DNA of 64,000 bases. Source: Saccharomonospora sp. NB11. Lineage in GTDB: Bacteria; Actinomycetota; Actinomycetes; Mycobacteriales; Pseudonocardiaceae. A program made the translations under genes and the position numbers. How positions within the stretch are numbered: the first letter of the stretch is position 1; every line of letters starts with the position of its first letter. Positions 50,072 to 62,123 of the stretch are shown in pieces. The stretch is from the NCBI RefSeq assembly GCF_015910535.1, contig NZ_JACBJG010000004.1:248001-312000 (forward strand), in the 5' to 3' direction. The notes below the pieces were generated by a model. That model ran no database searches, was not told where the DNA came from, and worked only from the letters and a program-made list of their open reading frames with translations.

Positions 50072-52567
50072 TCAGCCCTTGTCGCGCTCCTCGAAGACCC
50101 GTGCGAGGTGGTCGTGCAGCCGCGCGTGCCGGAACTGGTAGACGGCACCCGCCTGCCGCAGGACACCCCGCCGGTAGGCGTCCTCCAGGAAGTCGGCCAC
50201 CGACCACGGCAGCCGACCGGTCAGGGGCAACCAGAACCGCGCGAAGACGACCCACTGTCCCCAGGCCGTCATGCACAACGTGTAGCCGAGGCCACCGCCG
50301 ACCATGCCGACGGCACCCCACAACACCGCGTCGCCCACCCCGAACAGCATGGGGCCGAGGAAGTTCTGCAACAGCAGCACCAACGGGCCGCTCGCGAAGC
50401 CGACGACGAGGCCGAACATCGGGGCGAACATGCCGACCTGGGCGAGCACCGTTCTCCGGTTCAGCCGCAGCAGGTCGCCGGGCCGGCTGATCGAGCGAAT
50501 GTCCAGGGACGTCTCGAAGACGCCCACGAGGCCGTACGAGAGACCAGCCGCCGGGCCGAACACGGTCACCAAGACACACGCATTGATGAGGTTCGGAATC
50601 CACACGCTCACGTCGCCGGTCAACAGCCAGGACACCGCGCCCCAGATGATGCCGCTCAACAGGCCGAACACCACGCCGCCGAGCAGCCCGATCCGAAACC
50701 GTGACGCGAACGTGCGGGGTAGTTCGACCCGTCTTCGCCGTAGTCCGATGCGAGCCCGTGACGGCTCCAACGTGGCTCGCCCGAACATCAGGACGAGCCC
50801 GTGGACGAGCGCGAACGCGACTCCCGAGGCGAGCGCGACGTGCATCATGTCGAGCAGCCCCAAGCCGAACATCACGTCGAGCGCCTGCTCCTCACCGAAC
50901 ATCGACGCGCGCACCACGGAGTAGCCCAGCCACTGCACGAATCCGATGATCACGCCCGTCACCACCCCGACGACGAGCATCCGGATCGACATGCCGATCG
51001 TGTCGCCCAGTTGCCACCAGGCGAGATCGCGGGTGCCGAGCCGATTCAGGTGACGAGCCAGGTACCCGAGCCAGTACGGGACCCGCCGGACGTCCCACCG
51101 GCTGCGGGAGGCCCCGGGCCGGTCCTCGTACGCGGTGGGGACGAAGTTGTCGAAGAGGTGCGCCTCCACGGCCTCGGCGGTCGGGAACCGCTCGCCGTCG
51201 AGCAGCTCGCCGGGATCACGGCCCGGCCGGTCGCTGTAGACGGCCCTGGCCAGCCCGACCATCAGCGGGTTGGCCAGCACGGTGGCGAGATTCGCGCAGG
51301 CCGGGTCCTCCGGTTCGGCGGCCACCTTCGCCAACACCGGGTCCCACACGGTCGTCTGTCGTCCCCCGGACCTCGTCCTGCGCGCCGTACGCGGGAGGTA
51401 CCGGGCCAGGTCCTCGACCGTGAGATCGCACAGTTCGATGACGGCAGCGGAGGTGAGCACGTCGATCGCCTCGACAGCAGCCCGGTACTCGGCCGGACGG
51501 CTGGTGAGCACCAAAGGCAGGGCAGTGCCATTCAATTCCCGCAGAGCGGCCTGGCGCAGCCCGTCGGCGATCTCGTCGAACCCGTCGAGCACGGGCAGGA
51601 CCAGACCGGACTCCACCAGGGCCGTGGCGAGCGAGACCGTGTCGTAGGCGACCGCCGCCAGCCCCGGGAAGTCCCGTTCGAGCTGTCCGGCCAGCCAGTC
51701 GCGCAACGACACGTCCGCGGGGTTCCAGGGGCCGAGGTCGACGATCACCGGCACCGGGTCGTCGCGTCGCCGCCGCAGTTGGTCCAATGCGAACCGCAGC
51801 GTGAGCACCGTCTTGCCCGAGCCCGCACGCCCCAACACGACGAGTCGGCCGGAGGGGAGCTGTCGATAGGTGTCCACGACGTCGTCGAGGCTGCCCCGCA
51901 GCTCGCGAGTCGACGGCGGTGAGTCCTGGTCCGGGTCGAGACCGTAGACGTTGGCGTCGTGGTCGGCCATGTCGTCGTGAGCCGGCCGCCAGCTCACGGG
52001 CAGCGGGAAGGGGTCGTGGACCTGTCGCTGTTCCTCCTCCCGCAGCCAGCGGCTGCGGGCCGCCTGGGCGAGCTGCTCCGCGGCGTCGAGCAGGTAGTCG
52101 GGATAGCTCGGACGTTCCGGCGCGTCGTCGGGGGCCGGCTCGGCCGCCTGCGTCGGCTCGGCGCGTGATGCGGTGTCGGAAACGTCGGCGGGCGCTTCGG
52201 CCGTGGCCACGGTTTCGCCCACGCCGTCCGGCTGCCCGGCCGATGCCGTCGTGGCCGACGTGCTCGCCCCGTTCCCGGTGTCCGGACTCGACACGGACGT
52301 CGGCTGCGCGTCCGTCACAGGCTCGACCTTCGGCGTCGGAGTGCTCGTGCCCACGGCCGCCGCCACCAGAGCGTCACGCTCGTCGGGTGAGAGCTGCAGA
52401 GCCTCGGCCAGCAGCCTGACCGTGGCCATTCGCGGCGCGGCCCGCTCCCCGGTCTCGAACCCTCGGATGGTGCGAACACCCACACCCGACCGTTCCGCCA
52501 ACTGATCCTGGGTCAGCCCCGCCTCGCGTCGCCGCCGTCGAAGCTGAGCACCGAACTCGCTGGTCAC
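50072..52567 (-). CDS. XRE HTH - NACHT NTPase - multi-helix membrane protein
   Basis: 831 residues from a GTG six bases behind AAAGG. XRE-type helix-turn-helix (1-68: FGAQLRRRRREAGLTQDQLA, GVGVRTIRGFETGERAAP); a ~90-residue Ser/Thr/Ala/Pro linker; a NACHT NTPase with Walker A GRAGSGKT (246-253), Walker B LPVLDGFDE (324-332) and sensor LVLTSRPAEY; then roughly seven membrane helices from about residue 490 to 780. It ends in a short charged cytosolic helix. NACHT proteins are STAND switches; some bacterial ones are antiphage effectors. Here the HTH may tether it to DNA or a partner, and the membrane part could be the effector. Role unknown. Confidence 0.9.
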   Translation of the reverse strand: MTSEFGAQLRRRRREAGLTQDQLAERSGVGVRTIRGFETGERAAPRMATVRLLAEALQLSPDERDALVAAAVGTSTPTPKVEPVTDAQPTSVSSPDTGNGASTSATTASAGQPDGVGETVATAEAPADVSDTASRAEPTQAAEPAPDDAPERPSYPDYLLDAAEQLAQAARSRWLREEEQRQVHDPFPLPVSWRPAHDDMADHDANVYGLDPDQDSPPSTRELRGSLDDVVDTYRQLPSGRLVVLGRAGSGKTVLTLRFALDQLRRRRDDPVPVIVDLGPWNPADVSLRDWLAGQLERDFPGLAAVAYDTVSLATALVESGLVLPVLDGFDEIADGLRQAALRELNGTALPLVLTSRPAEYRAAVEAIDVLTSAAVIELCDLTVEDLARYLPRTARRTRSGGRQTTVWDPVLAKVAAEPEDPACANLATVLANPLMVGLARAVYSDRPGRDPGELLDGERFPTAEAVEAHLFDNFVPTAYEDRPGASRSRWDVRRVPYWLGYLARHLNRLGTRDLAWWQLGDTIGMSIRMLVVGVVTGVIIGFVQWLGYSVVRASMFGEEQALDVMFGLGLLDMMHVALASGVAFALVHGLVLMFGRATLEPSRARIGLRRRRVELPRTFASRFRIGLLGGVVFGLLSGIIWGAVSWLLTGDVSVWIPNLINACVLVTVFGPAAGLSYGLVGVFETSLDIRSISRPGDLLRLNRRTVLAQVGMFAPMFGLVVGFASGPLVLLLQNFLGPMLFGVGDAVLWGAVGMVGGGLGYTLCMTAWGQWVVFARFWLPLTGRLPWSVADFLEDAYRRGVLRQAGAVYQFRHARLHDHLARVFEERDKG

Positions 52568-52705
52568 GGCCGCCTTTCGTCCGAAGCACCTGGAGATCGA
52601 AAAGCTTACCGTGGCACCGGCAACAAATGGCCGGTTGCTGGCCTGTTCCTTCGGCCGGTGCAGACAGCACCATGCGAAGCGTCGAACGCCGAAGAAGGGA
52701 CAGAC

Positions 52706-53791
52706 ATGGCGACCACCGTTCCGGAGCCGCCGCTCGCCGCCCCGGACCCCGTGGCGCCGCGCCTCACCGTCGAGGATCTGAGCGTCGAGGAACGCGCCGT
52801 GCTCCGCGCCGTCGGTCGTGGTCTGAACGACACCGAGATCGCCGCGAAGCTGGGCCTGCCCCTCCCCGCCGTCCGGAGCTGTGTGACGCGGCTGCAGAGC
52901 GGGTTGGGCCAGCGTGACCGATGCGCTCTCATCGTGTACGCGTTCGATCACGGCGTCGTGTCCCCCGCCACGCCGGCGTCCGCGCGTCGTCGAACCCGGA
53001 CGGTCACCGAACGTGTCCGGCCCCGCCTGCGGATCGCGGCACTCGGTCCGCTGCGCGCCTGGTCCGACGGCACGCTCCTCAACCTGGGCCCGGTGCAGCA
53101 GCAGGCGGTGCTCGCCGCGCTCGCCCTGCGGCCGGACGTCACCGTGAGCCGACAGGAGCTGTTGCACGACGGGTGGGGTCTGGAGGCTCCGCAGGGCAAC
53201 GTGGTGCAGGTCTACGTGTATCGGCTGCGCAAGTGCCTGCAGTCGGGCGGCGGCGAGACCGTGATCAGCCGGGACCGACTCGGCTACCGCTTCGTCGGCC
53301 AGAGCGCAGAGCTGGACGTGACCCGGCTCGACGCACTCGGCGTGGAGGCCGAGACCGCGTGGCACGACGGGGACCTGGCGTCGGCGGTCGAGGCGCACCG
53401 GCGCGCACTGGAGCTGTTCGACGGTGAGCCACTGGCAGGGCTGCCCGGCCCGTTCGCCGAGATGGAGCGGGTCCGCCTCACGGAGCGTCGCCTCTCCCTG
53501 ACCACTCGCCGCGCGGAGGGACTGCTCCGGTTGAGCCGCCACGCACAGGCCATCGACGAGTTGTGGACTGCCTCGGTGGTCCACCCGCACAGCGAGGCCG
53601 TGGCCGCCCTCCTGATGCGTGCCCTGCACGAGTCAGGACGCCGCGCCGACGCGCTGGCGGTGTTCACCCGAGTCCGCAGGCTGTTGGTCGACGATCTCGG
53701 TGTGGAGCCGAGCGAACGGCTCCGCCGCCTGCACTACGCCGTCCTCCGCGACGAACGGCCGAGGCCGACGTTGGCCCTGCGTTCCGCCTGA
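52706..53791 (+). CDS. Hybrid regulator: LuxR-type HTH + OmpR-like HTH + BTAD (SARP)
   Basis: 361 residues. An N-terminal LuxR/GerE-like helix-turn-helix (about 22-85: LSVEERAVLRAVGRGLNDTE, IAAKLGLPLPAVRSCVTRL) precedes a SARP core: winged helix (ALGPLRAWSDGTLLNLGPVQ, LLHDGWGLEAPQGNVVQVYV) and bacterial transcriptional activation domain (about 190-350, ending VFTRVRRLLVDDLGVEPSE). SARPs activate secondary-metabolite or adaptive operons. Divergent from the NACHT gene with 138 bases between, so it may be its partner regulator. Confidence 0.88.
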   Translation: MATTVPEPPLAAPDPVAPRLTVEDLSVEERAVLRAVGRGLNDTEIAAKLGLPLPAVRSCVTRLQSGLGQRDRCALIVYAFDHGVVSPATPASARRRTRTVTERVRPRLRIAALGPLRAWSDGTLLNLGPVQQQAVLAALALRPDVTVSRQELLHDGWGLEAPQGNVVQVYVYRLRKCLQSGGGETVISRDRLGYRFVGQSAELDVTRLDALGVEAETAWHDGDLASAVEAHRRALELFDGEPLAGLPGPFAEMERVRLTERRLSLTTRRAEGLLRLSRHAQAIDELWTASVVHPHSEAVAALLMRALHESGRRADALAVFTRVRRLLVDDLGVEPSERLRRLHYAVLRDERPRPTLALRSA

Positions 53792-53862: not shown

Positions 53863-55365
<1,503 letters not shown>

Positions 55366-55381
55366 CGTAGCCGACGCAAGA

Positions 55382-55414
55382 CCCCCGGCGGTGTCCGCAC
55401 CGTCGGGGGCTTTT
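55382..55414 (+). terminator. Intrinsic terminator of lysS
   Basis: CCCCCGGCGGTG pairs with CACCGTCGGGGG (12 bp, one G-U) around TCCG, followed by CTTTT. It starts 17 bases after the lysS stop. One of the few classical terminators with a T-run in the window. Confidence 0.85.
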
Positions 55415-55767
55415 CGTGTTCCCGCTCATTTCCACAGTGGACCACCCATCTCGAACGGCCCATTCCTGGACTAGCCAGGTTCCGTTCCACTGAGCAAGAT
55501 TTCCTTCTTTTGACCACAGTAGACAGTCCTGTCACGACACACGATCGACTGTCGCAGCCATCGACTCCGTGACGCTCGCCCGCGCTTGAGCATCGACCTC
55601 ATGTCCGCCCCTCGACGCACCCGTGCGGCACGCCGAGGCTCACCCTCGACACCTCCCTCATCCCGAGACGTCGACCAGCCCTGTCGCGCCGCCCACATCA
55701 CTCGACATCCCCTCGGCCGCTCACCTCGGCCCATCACGGACCGTTCGAACCCTCTCACCCTCAGCCA

Positions 55768-55792
55768 CAACACGCCCATATATTGGGTGTTG
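55768..55792. promoter_or_regulatory. NrdR-like box upstream of nrdA
   Basis: CAACAC and GTGTTG arms (55768-55773 and 55787-55792) flank an inner CCCATATATTGGG. The AT core within ACAC...GTGT half-sites resembles NrdR boxes, which repress ribonucleotide reductase genes when dNTPs are plentiful. It abuts the candidate -35 region. NrdR normally binds a pair of boxes; only one is clear here. Confidence 0.55.
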
Positions 55793-55915
55793 CGGAGCCT
55801 GACACCACCACATGTAGGATTCGGCCACCAAGACCTCAACACAACCGAAGATCGACCGAACTCGCGGGCAACCCGGCTCGCGAGGCGGTCGACCACACCC
55901 TCATGGAGTCGCCGC

Positions 55916-58378
55916 ATGTCAGTGCAAGCTGCCCCGGAGACCGCGTCCGCCCGCTCACGGCGGGCCGCCGGAGTGCCGTGGGAGCGAGTCGAGAAGGTGG
56001 TACGCGAAGCCGTCGCAGGGCTTCCCGACACCTCGGCCGACGCGGTTCTCGCGGAGCTGGAGCGCAACGTCTACGACGGCATCAGCGCCGCCGACCTCGC
56101 CCTCGCCCAGGTGATGGCCGCCCGCACCCTCGTGGAGCGGGAACCCGACTACTCCTTCGTCGCCGCCCGGCTGCTGCTGCACTCGCTGCGCGGCGAGGCC
56201 GTCGGCTACCTCGCCGGAGCGCCGCGCAACCCGGACTACCCCGAGATGGCCGCCGCCTACGGCGACTACTTCCGCGACTACGTGCGTCGCGGCGTCGAAC
56301 TCCAGTTGCTCGCCGAGGACCTCGCCGGGTTCGACCTCGACATCCTCGCCGCTGCGTTGCGCCCCGAGCGCGATCTCGACCTCGGTCTGCTCGGCCTGCA
56401 GACGCTGTACGACCGCTACCTGCTGCGCGATCCCCACGCCGGGACCCGGTTCGAGCTGCCGCAGGCGTTCTTCATGCGGGTGGCGATGGGCCTGGCCGTC
56501 GCCGAGCCCGACCGGGAGGCCAGGGCCGTCGAGTTCTACGAGCTGCTGTCCTCGCTGCGGTTCATGACCTCCACCCCGACGCTGTTCAACGCAGGCACCC
56601 GCAGGCCGCAGCTCTCGTCGTGCTTCCTCACCACCGTGTCCGACAACCTCGCTTCGATCTTCAGCGGATACCGCAACAACGCGTTGCTCGCGAAGTACTC
56701 CGGGGGCCTCGGCAACGACTGGACGCCCGTGCGCGGCCTGGGCGCGCACATCCGGGGCACCGGCGGAAAGTCGCAGGGCGTGGTGCCGTTCCTCAAGATC
56801 GCCAACGACACCACGGTGGCGGTCAACCAGGGCGGCAAGCGCAAGGGCGCGGCGTGCGCGTACCTGGAGACGTGGCACATCGACGTCGAGGAGTTCCTCG
56901 ACCTGCGCAAGAACACCGGTGACGACCGCAGGCGCACCCACGACATGAACACCGCCAACTGGGTGCCCGACGAGTTCCTGCGCCGCGTGGAAGCCGACGA
57001 GGAGTGGACCCTCTTCTCCCCCGACGAGGTGCCCGACCTGCACGACCTCTACGGCACGGCCTTCGCCGAGCGCTACCGCGCGTACGAGAAGGCCGCCGAC
57101 GCGGGCGAGATCCGGGTCTTCCGTCGCGTCGCCGCGAAGCAGTTGTGGCGGCGCATGCTCACCATGCTGTTCGAGACCGGACACCCGTGGATCACCTTCA
57201 AGGACCCGTGCAACCTGCGGTCACCGCAGCAGCACGCGGGCGTGGTGCACTCGTCGAACCTGTGCACGGAGATCACGCTCAACACCAGTTCCGACGAGAT
57301 CGCCGTGTGCAACCTCGGCTCGGTCAACCTCGCCCGGCACGTGGGCGAGGACGGCCTGGACGTCGAGCTGCTGCGGCGCACCGTGACCACGGCCGTGCGC
57401 ATGCTCGACAACGTCATCGACATCAACTTCTACACGGTGCCGGAGGCCGAACGATCGAACCTGCGGCACCGCCCGGTGGGGCTGGGCCTGATGGGATTCG
57501 CGGACGCGCTGTTCACACTGGGCATTCCGCAGGCCTCCGAGGAGGCCGTCGAGTTCGCCGACCGGAGCATGGAGGTGCTGAGCTACCACGCCATCAGCGC
57601 CTCGGCCGATCTCGCCGCCGAACGCGGCGCGTACTCGTCGTTCGACGGCTCGCTGTGGAGCCGCGGCATTCTGCCGATCGACTCGATGCGACTGTTGGCC
57701 GAGGCGCGCGGTGAAGATGAGCTCGACGTCGACACCAGCGCCACGCTCGACTGGGAGTCGCTGCGCGAACGCGTCCGCACCGTCGGGATGCGCAACTCCA
57801 ACGTGCTGGCCATCGCCCCCACGGCCACGATCTCCAACATCTGCGGCGTGGGGCAGTCGATCGAGCCGCTGTTCTCCAACCTCTTCGTCAAGTCGAACAT
57901 GTCCGGGGAGTTCACCGTCGTGAACCCGCACCTCGTGCGCGCGTTGAAGCAGCGAGGGCTGTGGGACGACGACATGGTCGCGGAGCTGAAGCGCCACGAC
58001 GGCGTGCTCACCTCGATCGATCGCGTCCCCGACGACCTCAAGGCGCTGTACGCGACGGCGTTCGAGATCGACAGCCGGTGGCTGGTCGACGCGGCGTCGC
58101 GGCGGCAGAAGTGGATCGACCAGGCCCAGTCACTCAACCTCTACCTCGCCGAGCCGAGCGGGAAGGCACTGGACGCGCTCTACCGGCACGCGTGGCGTCG
58201 GGGTCTCAAGACGACCTACTACCTGCGCTCGCGTGCCGCGACCCAGGTGGAGAAGAGCACCCTGCGCGGGACGGACGGCCGGCTCAACGCCGTGACTCCC
58301 ACCGTGCCCGTCGCCGCGACGGAGACCACCGCGGCGGCCTGCCGCATCGACGACCCCGACTGCGAAGCCTGCCAGTGA
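55916..58378 (+). CDS. nrdA: Ribonucleoside-diphosphate reductase large subunit
   Basis: 820 residues; ATG with GGAG seven bases upstream. Catalytic subunit reducing NDPs to dNDPs. [20 protein letters not shown] and [12 protein letters not shown] line the active site; the thiyl cysteine region is [11 protein letters not shown] with NLGSVNLA, and [15 protein letters not shown] follows. The flexible C-terminus ends CEACQ, the redox pair reloaded by thioredoxin or glutaredoxin. The N-terminal ATP-cone is incomplete: its C-terminal half ([24 protein letters not shown]) is present but the usual basic V-x-KRDG start is missing, so allosteric activity control may be altered. Forms an operon with nrdB. 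Confidence 0.94.
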
Positions 58379-58407
58379 GCACCGGACTCCGACCGAAAGG
58401 ACACTCG

Positions 58408-59457
58408 TTGACCCGACACCTCACCCTCGACTTCGGTGCCGCGCGCGTGGACGTGGACGACAAGGCCATGATCAACGCGCGGGCCGACGTGAACCAGTTG
58501 CTTCCGATGAAGTACGGCTGGGCGTGGGAGAAGTACCTCGCGGGCTGTGACAACCACTGGATGCCCACCGAGGTCGCGATGCAGGCCGACATCGCGCTGT
58601 GGAAGTCGCCGGACGGCCTGACCGACGACGAGCGTTTGATGCTCATTCGCAATCTCGGGTTCTTCGCCACCGCCGAGTCGCTGGTGGCGAACAACCTCGT
58701 GCTCGCCGTCTACCGGCACCTCACGAACCCGGAGTGTCGGCAGTACCTGCTCCGCCAGGCGTTCGAGGAGGCCGTGCACACCCACACGTTCCAGTACGTG
58801 TGCGAGAGCCTCGGCCTCGACGAGGGCGAGTTGTTCAACGCCTACCGCGAGGTGCCGTCGATCGCGGACAAGGACTCGTGGGCGCTTCGGTACACCCGCG
58901 CGCTGGAGGACCCGAACTTCCGCACGGGCACCGTCGAGGCCGACCAGGAGTTCCTGCGGGACCTCGTCGCGTTCTACGTCGTGTTCGAGGGCATGTGGTT
59001 CTACACCGGGTTCGCGCAGGTCCTGTCGCTGGGGCGGCGCAACAAGATGGTCGGCATCGCCGAGCAGTACCAGTACATCCTGCGTGACGAGTCGATCCAC
59101 TTGAACTTCGGTATCGACTGCATCAACCAGATCAAGGCGGAGAACCCGCACCTGTGGACGCCGGAGTTCCAGCAGGAGGTGCGTGGCATGCTCGCGGAGG
59201 CGTGCGAGCTGGAGGTCGCCTACGCCCGTGACACGATGCCGAGGCCGATGCTCGGGTTGTCGGCGGAGTCGTGCGAGCAGTACATGCACTTCATCACCGA
59301 CCGCAGGGCCGCCCAGCTCGGCCTCGACCCGGTCTTCGGGGAGACGGAGAACCCGTTCCCCTGGATGTCGGAGGCCATGGATCTGCGCAAGGAGAAGAAC
59401 TTCTTCGAGACGCGGGTCACCGACTACCGCAGCGGCGCGGCCCTGGAGTGGGACTGA
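58408..59457 (+). CDS. nrdB: Ribonucleotide reductase small subunit, class Ic-like
   Basis: 349 residues from a TTG seven bases behind AAAGGA; a GTG at 58375 overlapping the nrdA stop is the alternative. Metal ligands are E90 ([10 protein letters not shown]), E121 and H124 (EEAVHTH), E194 (FEGMW), E228 and H231 (RDESIH). The residue four after H124, where class Ia has the tyrosyl radical, is F128, with Y130 two further on. In Chlamydia class Ic R2 the set is E89, E120, H123, F127, Y129, E193, E227, H230: the same with an offset of one. A Mn/Fe cofactor without tyrosyl radical is therefore expected. Confidence 0.94.
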
Positions 59458-59463
59458 CGGGCC

Positions 59464-59494
59464 GGGGAGCCGTCGTCGTCGGCGGCGGCTCCCC
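59464..59494 (+). terminator. Probable terminator hairpin after nrdB
   Basis: GGGGAGCCG pairs with CGGCTCCCC (9 bp) around a 13-base GTC-rich loop, 6 bases after the nrdB stop. No T-run follows. Confidence 0.6.
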
Positions 59495-59688
59495 ACCATG
59501 CCGGTTCGAGCGGTTCGCCCCTGTCGGCGGCCCTCGCTCGGGGCCAGGACCGACCGTTGTGTTTTCGAGTAGCCGAACGGTGCGCGACCGAGCACCATGG
59601 GCGTGCCACCGCAGTGACCCGGTGGAGTGGTCGATCCACCCTTCCAGGCGGTAGACAAGATGCTTATTGCATGATGCGGTTGCAGAGT

Positions 59689-59706
59689 TCCGGACCACGG
59701 TCCGGA
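59689..59706. promoter_or_regulatory. Operator-like inverted repeat in the promoter of the GGDEF/EAL gene
   Basis: TCCGGACC-AC-GGTCCGGA is a perfect 8+8 repeat located between the expected -35 and the TATGCT -10 box (59710-59715). A dimeric regulator bound there would block RNA polymerase. No regulator gene is adjacent. Confidence 0.65.
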
Positions 59707-59763
59707 CACTATGCTGGGCGGATTCCAGTGTTCGTTGATCGACGATGCTGTGCGAGGTGAAGC

Positions 59764-61659
59764 GTGCCGGAACCTGGTGACGCACCAGGCCTGGAGGCCA
59801 TCGCGCGCCGCTGGGCGGCGCGACTTGCCGAGGTCGACGGAGTGTCGGTGACCGCGGAGAGCCTGCAGCCCACGCTGCTCGCCGTCGCGCGGGAAGCTCA
59901 GGCGGAGGCGCAGGCGGCCCGAGACGCCGCAGTCCGCCGCTTCACCGACCTCTACAGCGCCGCGCCGGTCGGCGTGGTCCTCGGCGACGCCGACAACAAC
60001 ATCCACGACGTCAACCCGGCGTTCGTCGAACTGCTGCACCTCTCCCGCGAAGACCTGCTCGGGCAACCGCTCACGACACTCGCCGCCACGCCCCACGACG
60101 CGAAGGTCCTGGCCGCCGTCGTCGAGAGCGCCTTGCTGCCCGCCCGAAGACCCAGGCAGGAGCAGATCACCCTCACGCACGGCAGGGACGGCACGCTCCG
60201 GACCCGCGTCACCGCCGCCACGATCACCGCGGACGGGCCCGGCTTCCCCCACCCGCTCCTGCTGGTCGAGGATGTGCAGGAGCTGGCCCTGCTGAGCGAG
60301 CAGTTGCGCAGGCAGAACGTCCAGGACTCCCTCACGGGACTGCCGAACTCGTATCACTTCGAGAACCAGTTGGACACGGCGCTCGCCGCGGCATCGGCCT
60401 CCGGCGGTCAACTCGCGCTCATCTACCTGGACATCGACGGCTTCCGGGTCGTCAACGACGGGCTCGGTCCGGGCGCGGGCGACGAGGTGCTGCGTCAGGT
60501 CGCGCGTCGGCTCGAACTGCACTTCACCACCCAACCGTCCTACGACGCGGTGGTGGCGCGGTTGTCCGGTGACGGCTTCGCCGTGCTGCTGCGCGACGCC
60601 CACGACGGCGACATCGACACCACGGTCGTGGTCGACCTCGTCGAGGAGGCGATGCGCGACCTCGCCGAACCCGTGTACGTCGACGGTGTCGGTGTGGCCA
60701 CCAACGTCAGCGTCGGCATCGTCGTCGCGGGTGCCACCGGTCAGACCCGCGAGGAACTGCACCGCGCCGCCGAGATCACGCTGCACCGGGCCAAGGAGAA
60801 CGGCAAGGCGCAGTGGATGCTGTTCGAGCGGGACCTCCACGGGGAGGACCGGCGACGCTTCCACATCGGCGCGGCCCTCGGCGGCGGGCTGGAGAACGGC
60901 CAGTTCAGCGTCGACTACGAACCCACCGTGACCCTCGACGACGCGCGGCGGGTCGCCGTGGTGAACGCCCAGCTCCGCTGGGACCACCCCGAGCACGGTG
61001 TCCTGCGTGCCCCCGACTTCTTCCCACTCGCCGACGCCACGGGCATGACGCCCGCGTTGGGCGAGCAACTGCTCGCCCAGTCCATGCTCGACGCCGCCGC
61101 GTGGCAGCGGGAGTTCGACCACGCACCGGATCTGTGCGTGCGGATCCCGACCCGGCTCGCCGTCGACTCCAATCTCGTCCGACTCGTGCGCACCGAACTC
61201 GCACGCACCGGCCTGCCTCCGCAGAAGCTGCGCATCTGCAGCGACTCCACCGCGTTGACCGATCCTCGTGGCGAGGTCCTGGAGAACCTGGCGATCCTCG
61301 CCGAGTTGAACGTCAAGATCACGCTGGCCGTGTCCGGGGTCGCCGACCTGGAGCTGGTCCACCGGCACCGCTTGCCCGTCGGGTTCGTGATCGTGTCCGG
61401 CCCGCTCGTCGAGGCCCTCGCCGGGGACGACGACGCCCAGGCCCAGGGCGCCCACCGACACTTCGAGATGCTGATGCACCGGGCCCGGGAACTCGGCATC
61501 AAGCGCATCGGCGTCGACGGGGTGCGCGACGCCGCCCACGCCGAGCGGCTCGCCGAACTCGGTGTCGTCGCGGGGCGCGGCGCGCTCTTCGGTGAGGAAA
61601 TCGACGCGGACGAAGTCCGAACGATGCTCGCGAAGTCGGCGGAGCGCGTGCAACCATAG
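59764..61659 (+). CDS. PAS - degenerate GGDEF - degenerate EAL protein
   Basis: 631 residues, GTG start behind GTGAAGC. PAS domain (about 60-185: RFTDLYSAAPVGVVLGDADN), GGDEF fold (about 190-350: DSLTGLPNSYHFENQL, LIYLDIDGFRVVND) and EAL fold (about 365-620). The GGDEF signature reads SGDGF, losing the second G and the catalytic E; the EAL motif reads NAQLRWDHP where EALLRW is expected. Both cyclic-di-GMP synthesis and hydrolysis are therefore unlikely. It may bind c-di-GMP or act as a signalling scaffold. Soluble: no membrane helices. Confidence 0.9.
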   Translation: MPEPGDAPGLEAIARRWAARLAEVDGVSVTAESLQPTLLAVAREAQAEAQAARDAAVRRFTDLYSAAPVGVVLGDADNNIHDVNPAFVELLHLSREDLLGQPLTTLAATPHDAKVLAAVVESALLPARRPRQEQITLTHGRDGTLRTRVTAATITADGPGFPHPLLLVEDVQELALLSEQLRRQNVQDSLTGLPNSYHFENQLDTALAAASASGGQLALIYLDIDGFRVVNDGLGPGAGDEVLRQVARRLELHFTTQPSYDAVVARLSGDGFAVLLRDAHDGDIDTTVVVDLVEEAMRDLAEPVYVDGVGVATNVSVGIVVAGATGQTREELHRAAEITLHRAKENGKAQWMLFERDLHGEDRRRFHIGAALGGGLENGQFSVDYEPTVTLDDARRVAVVNAQLRWDHPEHGVLRAPDFFPLADATGMTPALGEQLLAQSMLDAAAWQREFDHAPDLCVRIPTRLAVDSNLVRLVRTELARTGLPPQKLRICSDSTALTDPRGEVLENLAILAELNVKITLAVSGVADLELVHRHRLPVGFVIVSGPLVEALAGDDDAQAQGAHRHFEMLMHRARELGIKRIGVDGVRDAAHAERLAELGVVAGRGALFGEEIDADEVRTMLAKSAERVQP

Positions 61660-61664
61660 CCGCC

Positions 61665-62123
61665 ATGAAACAGGCAGAGCGCGTGCCGGACTTCACGTTG
61701 CCCGACGAGACGGGCACTCCCCGGCGGCTGACCGAGTTCCTCGCCAAGGGGCCCGTCGTGTTGTTCTTCTACCCCGCGGCGATGAGCCCGGGGTGCACGG
61801 CCGAGAGCTGCCACTTCCGCGACCTCTCCGCCGAGTTCGCCGAGCTGGGCGCTCAGCCGATCGGGGTGAGCCGGGACAGCGTCGAGAAGCAGAAGCAGTT
61901 CTCCGAGGCCAACCGGCTCGGGTTCCCGCTGCTGTCGGACACCGACGGCACGGTCGCCGAGCTGTTCGGCGTCCGGCGCAACCTCGGCCCCCTGGCGACC
62001 AAACGCCACACCTTCGTGATCGGCACCGACAGCACGGTGCTCGCCGTCATCAGAAGCGAACTCCGCATGTCGGTTCACGCCGACAGAGCACTCGAGGCCC
62101 TGCGCGCTCACCGCACAAGCTGA
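61665..62123 (+). CDS. Peroxiredoxin, BCP/PrxQ type
   Basis: 152 residues, ATG 5 bases after the previous stop. PAAMSPGCTAESCHFRDL contains the peroxidatic cysteine (in PGCT) and a resolving cysteine five residues later, the usual PrxQ arrangement. Thioredoxin-fold start FTLPDETGTPRRLTEFL. Reduces H2O2 and organic peroxides with thioredoxin as donor. Cytosolic; may be co-transcribed with the PAS-GGDEF-EAL gene. Confidence 0.92.
   Translation: MKQAERVPDFTLPDETGTPRRLTEFLAKGPVVLFFYPAAMSPGCTAESCHFRDLSAEFAELGAQPIGVSRDSVEKQKQFSEANRLGFPLLSDTDGTVAELFGVRRNLGPLATKRHTFVIGTDSTVLAVIRSELRMSVHADRALEALRAHRTS

Follow-up and report, generated by a model that had tools for sequence, protein, structure and literature searches.

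A class Ic-type ribonucleotide reductase and its predicted Mn/Fe cofactor in Saccharomonospora sp. NB11

Does a ribonucleotide reductase (RNR) beta subunit in which phenylalanine replaces the radical tyrosine belong to class Ic, and what would this mean for its metals, its inhibitors and its regulation? The question was raised by the nrdB gene in the window, that is, the whole stretch of 64,000 nucleotides analyzed here, in which an earlier note had recognized a class Ic-type enzyme. The reading frame of nrdB (Table 1) is open from its TTG codon to the stop codon at 59455-59457, and a GAAAGGAC stretch was found by eye just 5' of the TTG, at 58395-58402. The Pfam search of NrdB returned a single domain, Ribonuc_red_sm (E = 1.1e-89), and the NCBIfam model NF005550, whose cut-off is 309 bits, was matched with 654 bits. 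The best solved relatives were 6Y2N (phmmer, E = 1.3e-206) and the R2 entries of C. trachomatis, 1SYY, 4D8F, and 2ANI (E = 3e-140 to 8e-140; 3.1e-140 for 1SYY by phmmer), all of them far better than chance matches. The 2ANI chain has Tyr where C. trachomatis has F127.

Table 1. Features of the reductase locus, in positions of the window, and the R2lox gene of the same genome, in positions of its own records.
Feature	Position	Strand	Remarks
NrdR-box-like site 1	55773..55788	+	11/16 to consensus
NrdR-box-like site 2	55805..55820	+	10/16 to consensus; 32 bases past site 1
nrdA, catalytic alpha subunit	55916..58378	+	820 aa; start ATG 55916 picked by eye, mechanical ORF start 55586
nrdB, beta subunit (class Ic type) of a class I ribonucleotide reductase	58408..59457	+	349 aa; TTG start
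Phe128 codon TTC, at the radical-tyrosine position (F127 in C. trachomatis)	58789..58791	+	
R2lox of the same genome	C14:366993-367739; L002:1408-2376		NF006199, 620.9 bits

The residues E90, E121, H124, F128, Y130, E194, E228, and H231 were read directly from the translated NrdB, and they correspond to E89, E120, H123, F127, Y129, E193, E227, and H230 of the Chlamydia protein in the pairwise alignment with 1SYY as well as in the multiple alignments. The replacement of the radical tyrosine by F128, as the earlier note had proposed, was thus confirmed by the translation and by the alignment with F127, and the six ligands and Y130 of the Chlamydia set were all found. The constant offset of one between the two numberings is true for every residue named in that note; going by the gaps in the pairwise alignment, W51 has an offset of 0 and Y340/Y338 one of 2. 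In the multiple alignment NrdB also carries W51, F198, Y223, and Y340, the equivalents of W51, F197, Y222, and Y338 in C. trachomatis. NrdB therefore has the features by which class Ic is recognized: the radical tyrosine is replaced, the first of the six ligands is Glu and not Asp, the relay residues (W51 and Y223) and the Phe between the metal sites (F198) are present, and a C-terminal tyrosine goes together with a gene for an alpha subunit. Class Ia and Ib proteins have Tyr four residues past the first His ligand, where NrdB has Phe, and in a 174-row alignment every one of the 35 rows that resemble class Ia or Ib has Tyr at the radical place. The alignment with class Ia, Ib, and Ic sequences, which had been suggested as a check, placed NrdB on the side of class Ic in its residues. 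Together with the NF005550 score, the C-terminal tyrosine and the nrdA partner, these residues bear out the class Ic-type assignment, and on sequence grounds NrdB is a well-supported class Ic beta subunit. In the tree the clade of the window joined the Chlamydia protein at 85/84, which is below the 95/80 mark, and the Chlamydia branch was long. We estimate a probability of about 90% for the whole explanation, namely that nrdA and nrdB encode an aerobic class Ic RNR of the C. trachomatis kind, with a predicted Mn/Fe cofactor and control by NrdR.

The Phe at position 128 could be misleading in two ways. Tyr and Phe codons differ by one base, and codon 128 would also read Phe if a class Ia gene carried a point mutation there or had been misread in sequencing. 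All 80 named relatives (the closest 80) and 6Y2N have Phe here, while position 90 is Glu in NrdB and Asp in all 35 Tyr-type rows, and an error or mutation at this codon, which the relatives rule out, is extremely improbable. A Phe that appeared in the class Ib-like row L134 was an artifact of dropped insertions, and the multiple alignment gives Tyr for it.

The second way is that NrdB is no reductase subunit at all and instead an R2lox (R2-like ligand-binding oxidase), since in R2lox, too, Phe replaces the radical tyrosine, and one such protein is encoded in this genome. The R2lox of the genome shares with NrdB the ferritin-like family, the Phe at the radical site, and the six ligands; unlike NrdB, it has Ala and Arg at the positions of F198 and Y223, and its whole frame lacks a C-terminal tyrosine. 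The Ala at the first of these discriminating positions was given by the finer alignments, whereas a cruder alignment gave Leu. According to published comparisons, Y222 is conserved in R2c and not in R2lox, F197 is Ala in R2lox (PMC4118035), and the C-terminal tyrosine is common to R2c and standard R2 (PMC3824934). NrdB has F198 where R2lox would have Ala near the metal site, it ends with Y340, it scored at most 48.1 bits to the R2lox models compared with 654 bits to NF005550, and nrdA adjoins its gene. The discriminating residues and the operon thus rule out an R2lox identity, to which we assign a negligible probability.

To NrdB as a reductase subunit, the genome adds one further reductase. 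The search with PF00268 (E up to 0.001) found two places, nrdB and the R2lox gene, and the search with PF02867 also found two, nrdA and the gene of the B12-dependent NrdJ; the completeness of the assembly is listed as 99.98%. Among these matches, the class Ic enzyme is the single class I reductase, next to the class II enzyme NrdJ. Such a genome is a setting in which to test why the Mn/Fe type is kept beside a B12-dependent enzyme. In addition, NrdB and R2lox make two candidate proteins of the Mn/Fe type in the same genome.

The nrdA gene lies directly upstream of nrdB in the window, and it was present at 76 of the 80 loci of the relatives; at the other four, the contig ends close to nrdB and cuts the locus. 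NrdA scored 1426 bits to the alpha-subunit model NF005544, which was matched only from model position 161. Its match to the ATP-cone profile (window 55916-56200) reached 15.7 bits, below the cut-off of 25.8, and started at profile position 18, and at the 76 of 80 loci with nrdA the similarity to the relatives began at NrdA residue 1 to 24, mostly 22. Because the cone match starts at profile position 18 and the similarity starts near residue 22, the N-terminal part of the cone seems to be missing. At L010 and L075 there is no start codon between the aligned NrdA region and a nearby upstream in-frame stop; at most other loci in-frame starts are present further upstream, so longer NrdA N-termini are possible there. 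The actinomycete class Ic enzymes may have lost the dATP off-switch, with a cone remnant in NrdA and none in NrdB, and may be controlled instead by NrdR repression shared with NrdJ, a proposal for which we see even odds.

From the conserved residues we infer the metals and the chemistry of this system by analogy with C. trachomatis. NrdB would take one Mn in site 1 and one Fe in site 2 through E90, E121, H124, E194, E228, and H231. These metals would be oxidized by O2 (or peroxide), with the electron coming in through W51 and Y223; in R2c, W51 and Y222 are reported to carry the extra electron into the cofactor (PMC4118035). The resulting stable Mn(IV)/Fe(III) cofactor would stand in for the tyrosyl radical of class Ia and Ib, and the hole would then move through W51 and the C-terminal Y340 into NrdA to give the active-site thiyl radical. 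The metals are not fixed by the ligands alone, as R2c is described to accept Fe at each site and Mn at either one (PMC4118035), and according to this 2014 review, Mn/Fe binding in vivo had at that time been shown for no R2c. An NrdB of class Ic appearance that uses Fe/Fe or Mn/Mn as the oxidant in the cell is still unlikely, considering that the mixed-metal form is required for high activity of the C. trachomatis R2c (PMC4118035) and that every primary ligand as well as F198 and Y223 is kept in NrdB. The Mn/Fe cofactor is the best inference for NrdB. In the accessible texts of the literature searched, we found neither metal analyses nor EPR or activity measurements of any class Ic member from actinomycetes.

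The absence of a radical tyrosine had also led to the expectation of hydroxyurea resistance, which is not supported, since published work on the class Ic enzyme of Chlamydia reports inactivation by hydroxyurea. A paper of Jiang et al. from 2010, cited in PMC8463856, reportedly speaks in its title of inactivation by this compound. Hydroxyurea reduces the Mn(IV)/Fe(III) cofactor of class Ic (PMC8463856; PMC11883743), and the reduction was described as proceeding in two phases, a fast one in which a pathway tyrosyl radical is intercepted and a slow one in which hydroxyurea reacts directly with Mn(IV)Fe(III) (PMC8463856). As the cofactor is reduced, resistance does not follow from membership in class Ic, and the assumption that the lack of a tyrosyl radical equals hydroxyurea resistance needs to be corrected. 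Moreover, the NrdJ of this genome could mask a hydroxyurea phenotype by carrying growth, so that resistance of a strain would not be evidence on NrdB. As for the other stresses, a lower NO sensitivity of class Ic stands in print as a hypothesis, and stability of class Ic to H2O2 in vitro was reported (PMC4118035).

The region upstream of nrdA contains two NrdR-box-like sites (Table 1), which were scored against 16 consensus letters, the last of them an assumption of ours. The published consensus is acaCwAtATaTwGtg (PMC4009431). Single sites are weak by this measure, as the best site in 76 shuffled upstreams of relatives scored 11 once and 10 nine times. The sum of the site pair in the window was 21, compared with a maximum of 19 among the 76 shuffled upstreams (single-base shuffles of upstreams of up to 500 bases, with nine spacings allowed for real and shuffled sequences alike). 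A pair score of at least 19 was reached by 26 of 76 real upstreams and by 1 of 76 shuffled ones, and 50 of the 76 relatives stayed below 19 within 500 bases. The core of site 2, which lies at 55811 in the window, occurred in 48 of 75 upstreams of the relatives (up to 800 bases; a further locus was omitted because its upstream was short) vs. 0.52 expected, for a core picked after the pair scan and for relatives that are not independent of each other. Furthermore, the NrdR gene adjoins nrdJ in the same genome, and inspection by eye showed a similar site pair ahead of nrdR, near L085:1318-1365. It is likely that NrdR represses nrdAB and nrdRJ jointly: acting through the paired upstream sites, it would probably repress nrdAB together with the NrdJ encoded elsewhere. 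In the nrdABS of Streptomyces, a B12 riboswitch lies upstream of nrdA. No B12 riboswitch was found upstream of nrdA in the window with Rfam (55000-59900, E up to 5), and the only two matches of this search were unrelated and far below their cut-offs.

The other genes around the operon were read by eye from their translations. Downstream of nrdB, a PAS-GGDEF-EAL-like protein is encoded at 59764-61659 and is followed by a peroxiredoxin-like protein at 61665-62123. On the opposite strand, a long open frame at 50072-53629 (-) contains a helix-turn-helix, an NTPase P-loop (GRAGSGKT) and then membrane segments.

In a second clade of actinomycete beta subunits, Phe also occupies the radical site, the first ligand is Glu, and Trp stands in place of Y223 (14/14, L136-L149). 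Identity to the NrdB of the window, determined for nine members (L107-L115), was 37 to 38%, and two tested members scored best to NF007186. The alpha gene lies beside nrdB at 13 of the 14 loci, and the remaining one (L141) is cut by a contig end. Six members were placed in the tree with the Tyr-type class Ia clade and apart from the clade of the window, at 90/74, below the mark. This placement hints that, within the class, the radical tyrosine may have been lost a second time independently. A gene for a metal-binding protein of an Mn/Fe-type ABC transporter stands beside nrdB at 2 of the 14 loci (L139 and L140), and a match to such a gene was found at 1 of 81 loci of the window clade (L082); with these counts, a link between a manganese-uptake gene and the second clade was dropped. 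Three more distant beta subunits from Actinomycetota (L162, L163, and L164) share the class Ic residue set except for a Leu at the radical site.

How common the NrdB type is was estimated from sampled genomes and from the alignment. Scores above the NF005550 cut-off were obtained in 91 of 150 genomes sampled from the family, including 7 of 7 from the genus, in 21 of 394 sampled from the class, and in 15 of 296 sampled from the phylum, three of the last 15 having Leu at the radical place. A scan of the genome collection confirmed at least 585 relatives, of which the best 80 were kept; we take the genera of these 80 to be all Actinomycetota. The 11-position residue set (without F198) was identical in 80 of these 80, which are by design the closest ones, and the nearest named relative among them was Prauserella shujinwangii (90%). 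In the 174-row alignment, 111 rows agree with the NrdB of the window at all 12 positions, F198 included. The other 63 rows are other R2 types, comprising 33 rows with Tyr, Asp at 90 and Trp at 223, 24 rows with Phe and Trp at 223, three rows with Leu, two more Tyr rows, and one R2lox; some of these are the same gene fetched twice, and L001, L003, and L106 (the window itself) were left out. The idea that Phe is common to Streptomyces-like genomes was rejected, as the rows from what is presumably the genus Streptomyces have Tyr and Asp, the class Ia type.

The rarity of class Ic in actinomycetes that the earlier note had implied is incorrect, since the type is frequent in the family and an actinomycete R2 of this kind has already been solved. 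This R2, from Saccharopolyspora erythraea (6Y2N), is identical to NrdB at 288 of 338 residues (85%), has the same ligands, Phe, Trp, and Tyr residues, and differs from it only by substitutions. The available text of the structure report names neither class Ic nor metals or activity for it (PMC7467353). A group with the change of Tyr to Phe was described in Chlamydia, haloarchaea, and other bacteria (PMC3019208). With 6Y2N carrying Phe and the full set, with this group described, and with a class Ic listing for Tropheryma whipplei, an actinomycete enzyme of the class Ic type is already known, and NrdB is an ordinary member of a known, common family. Tropheryma whipplei itself belongs to the Actinomycetota. 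Its listing as class Ic is found in the table of a 2014 review (PMC4009431). A Mn/Fe-type reductase would be widespread in one actinomycete family.

The NrdA of the window, with 820 aa and a weak, shortened ATP-cone match, is unlike the full NCBIfam alpha model of 1046 positions, which we take to be the chlamydial one and which it matched only from position 256. The class Ic R2 of C. trachomatis (1SYY and 4D8F) is identical to NrdB at 202 of 340 residues (59%), and the 12 functional positions compared are the same in both proteins (12/12).
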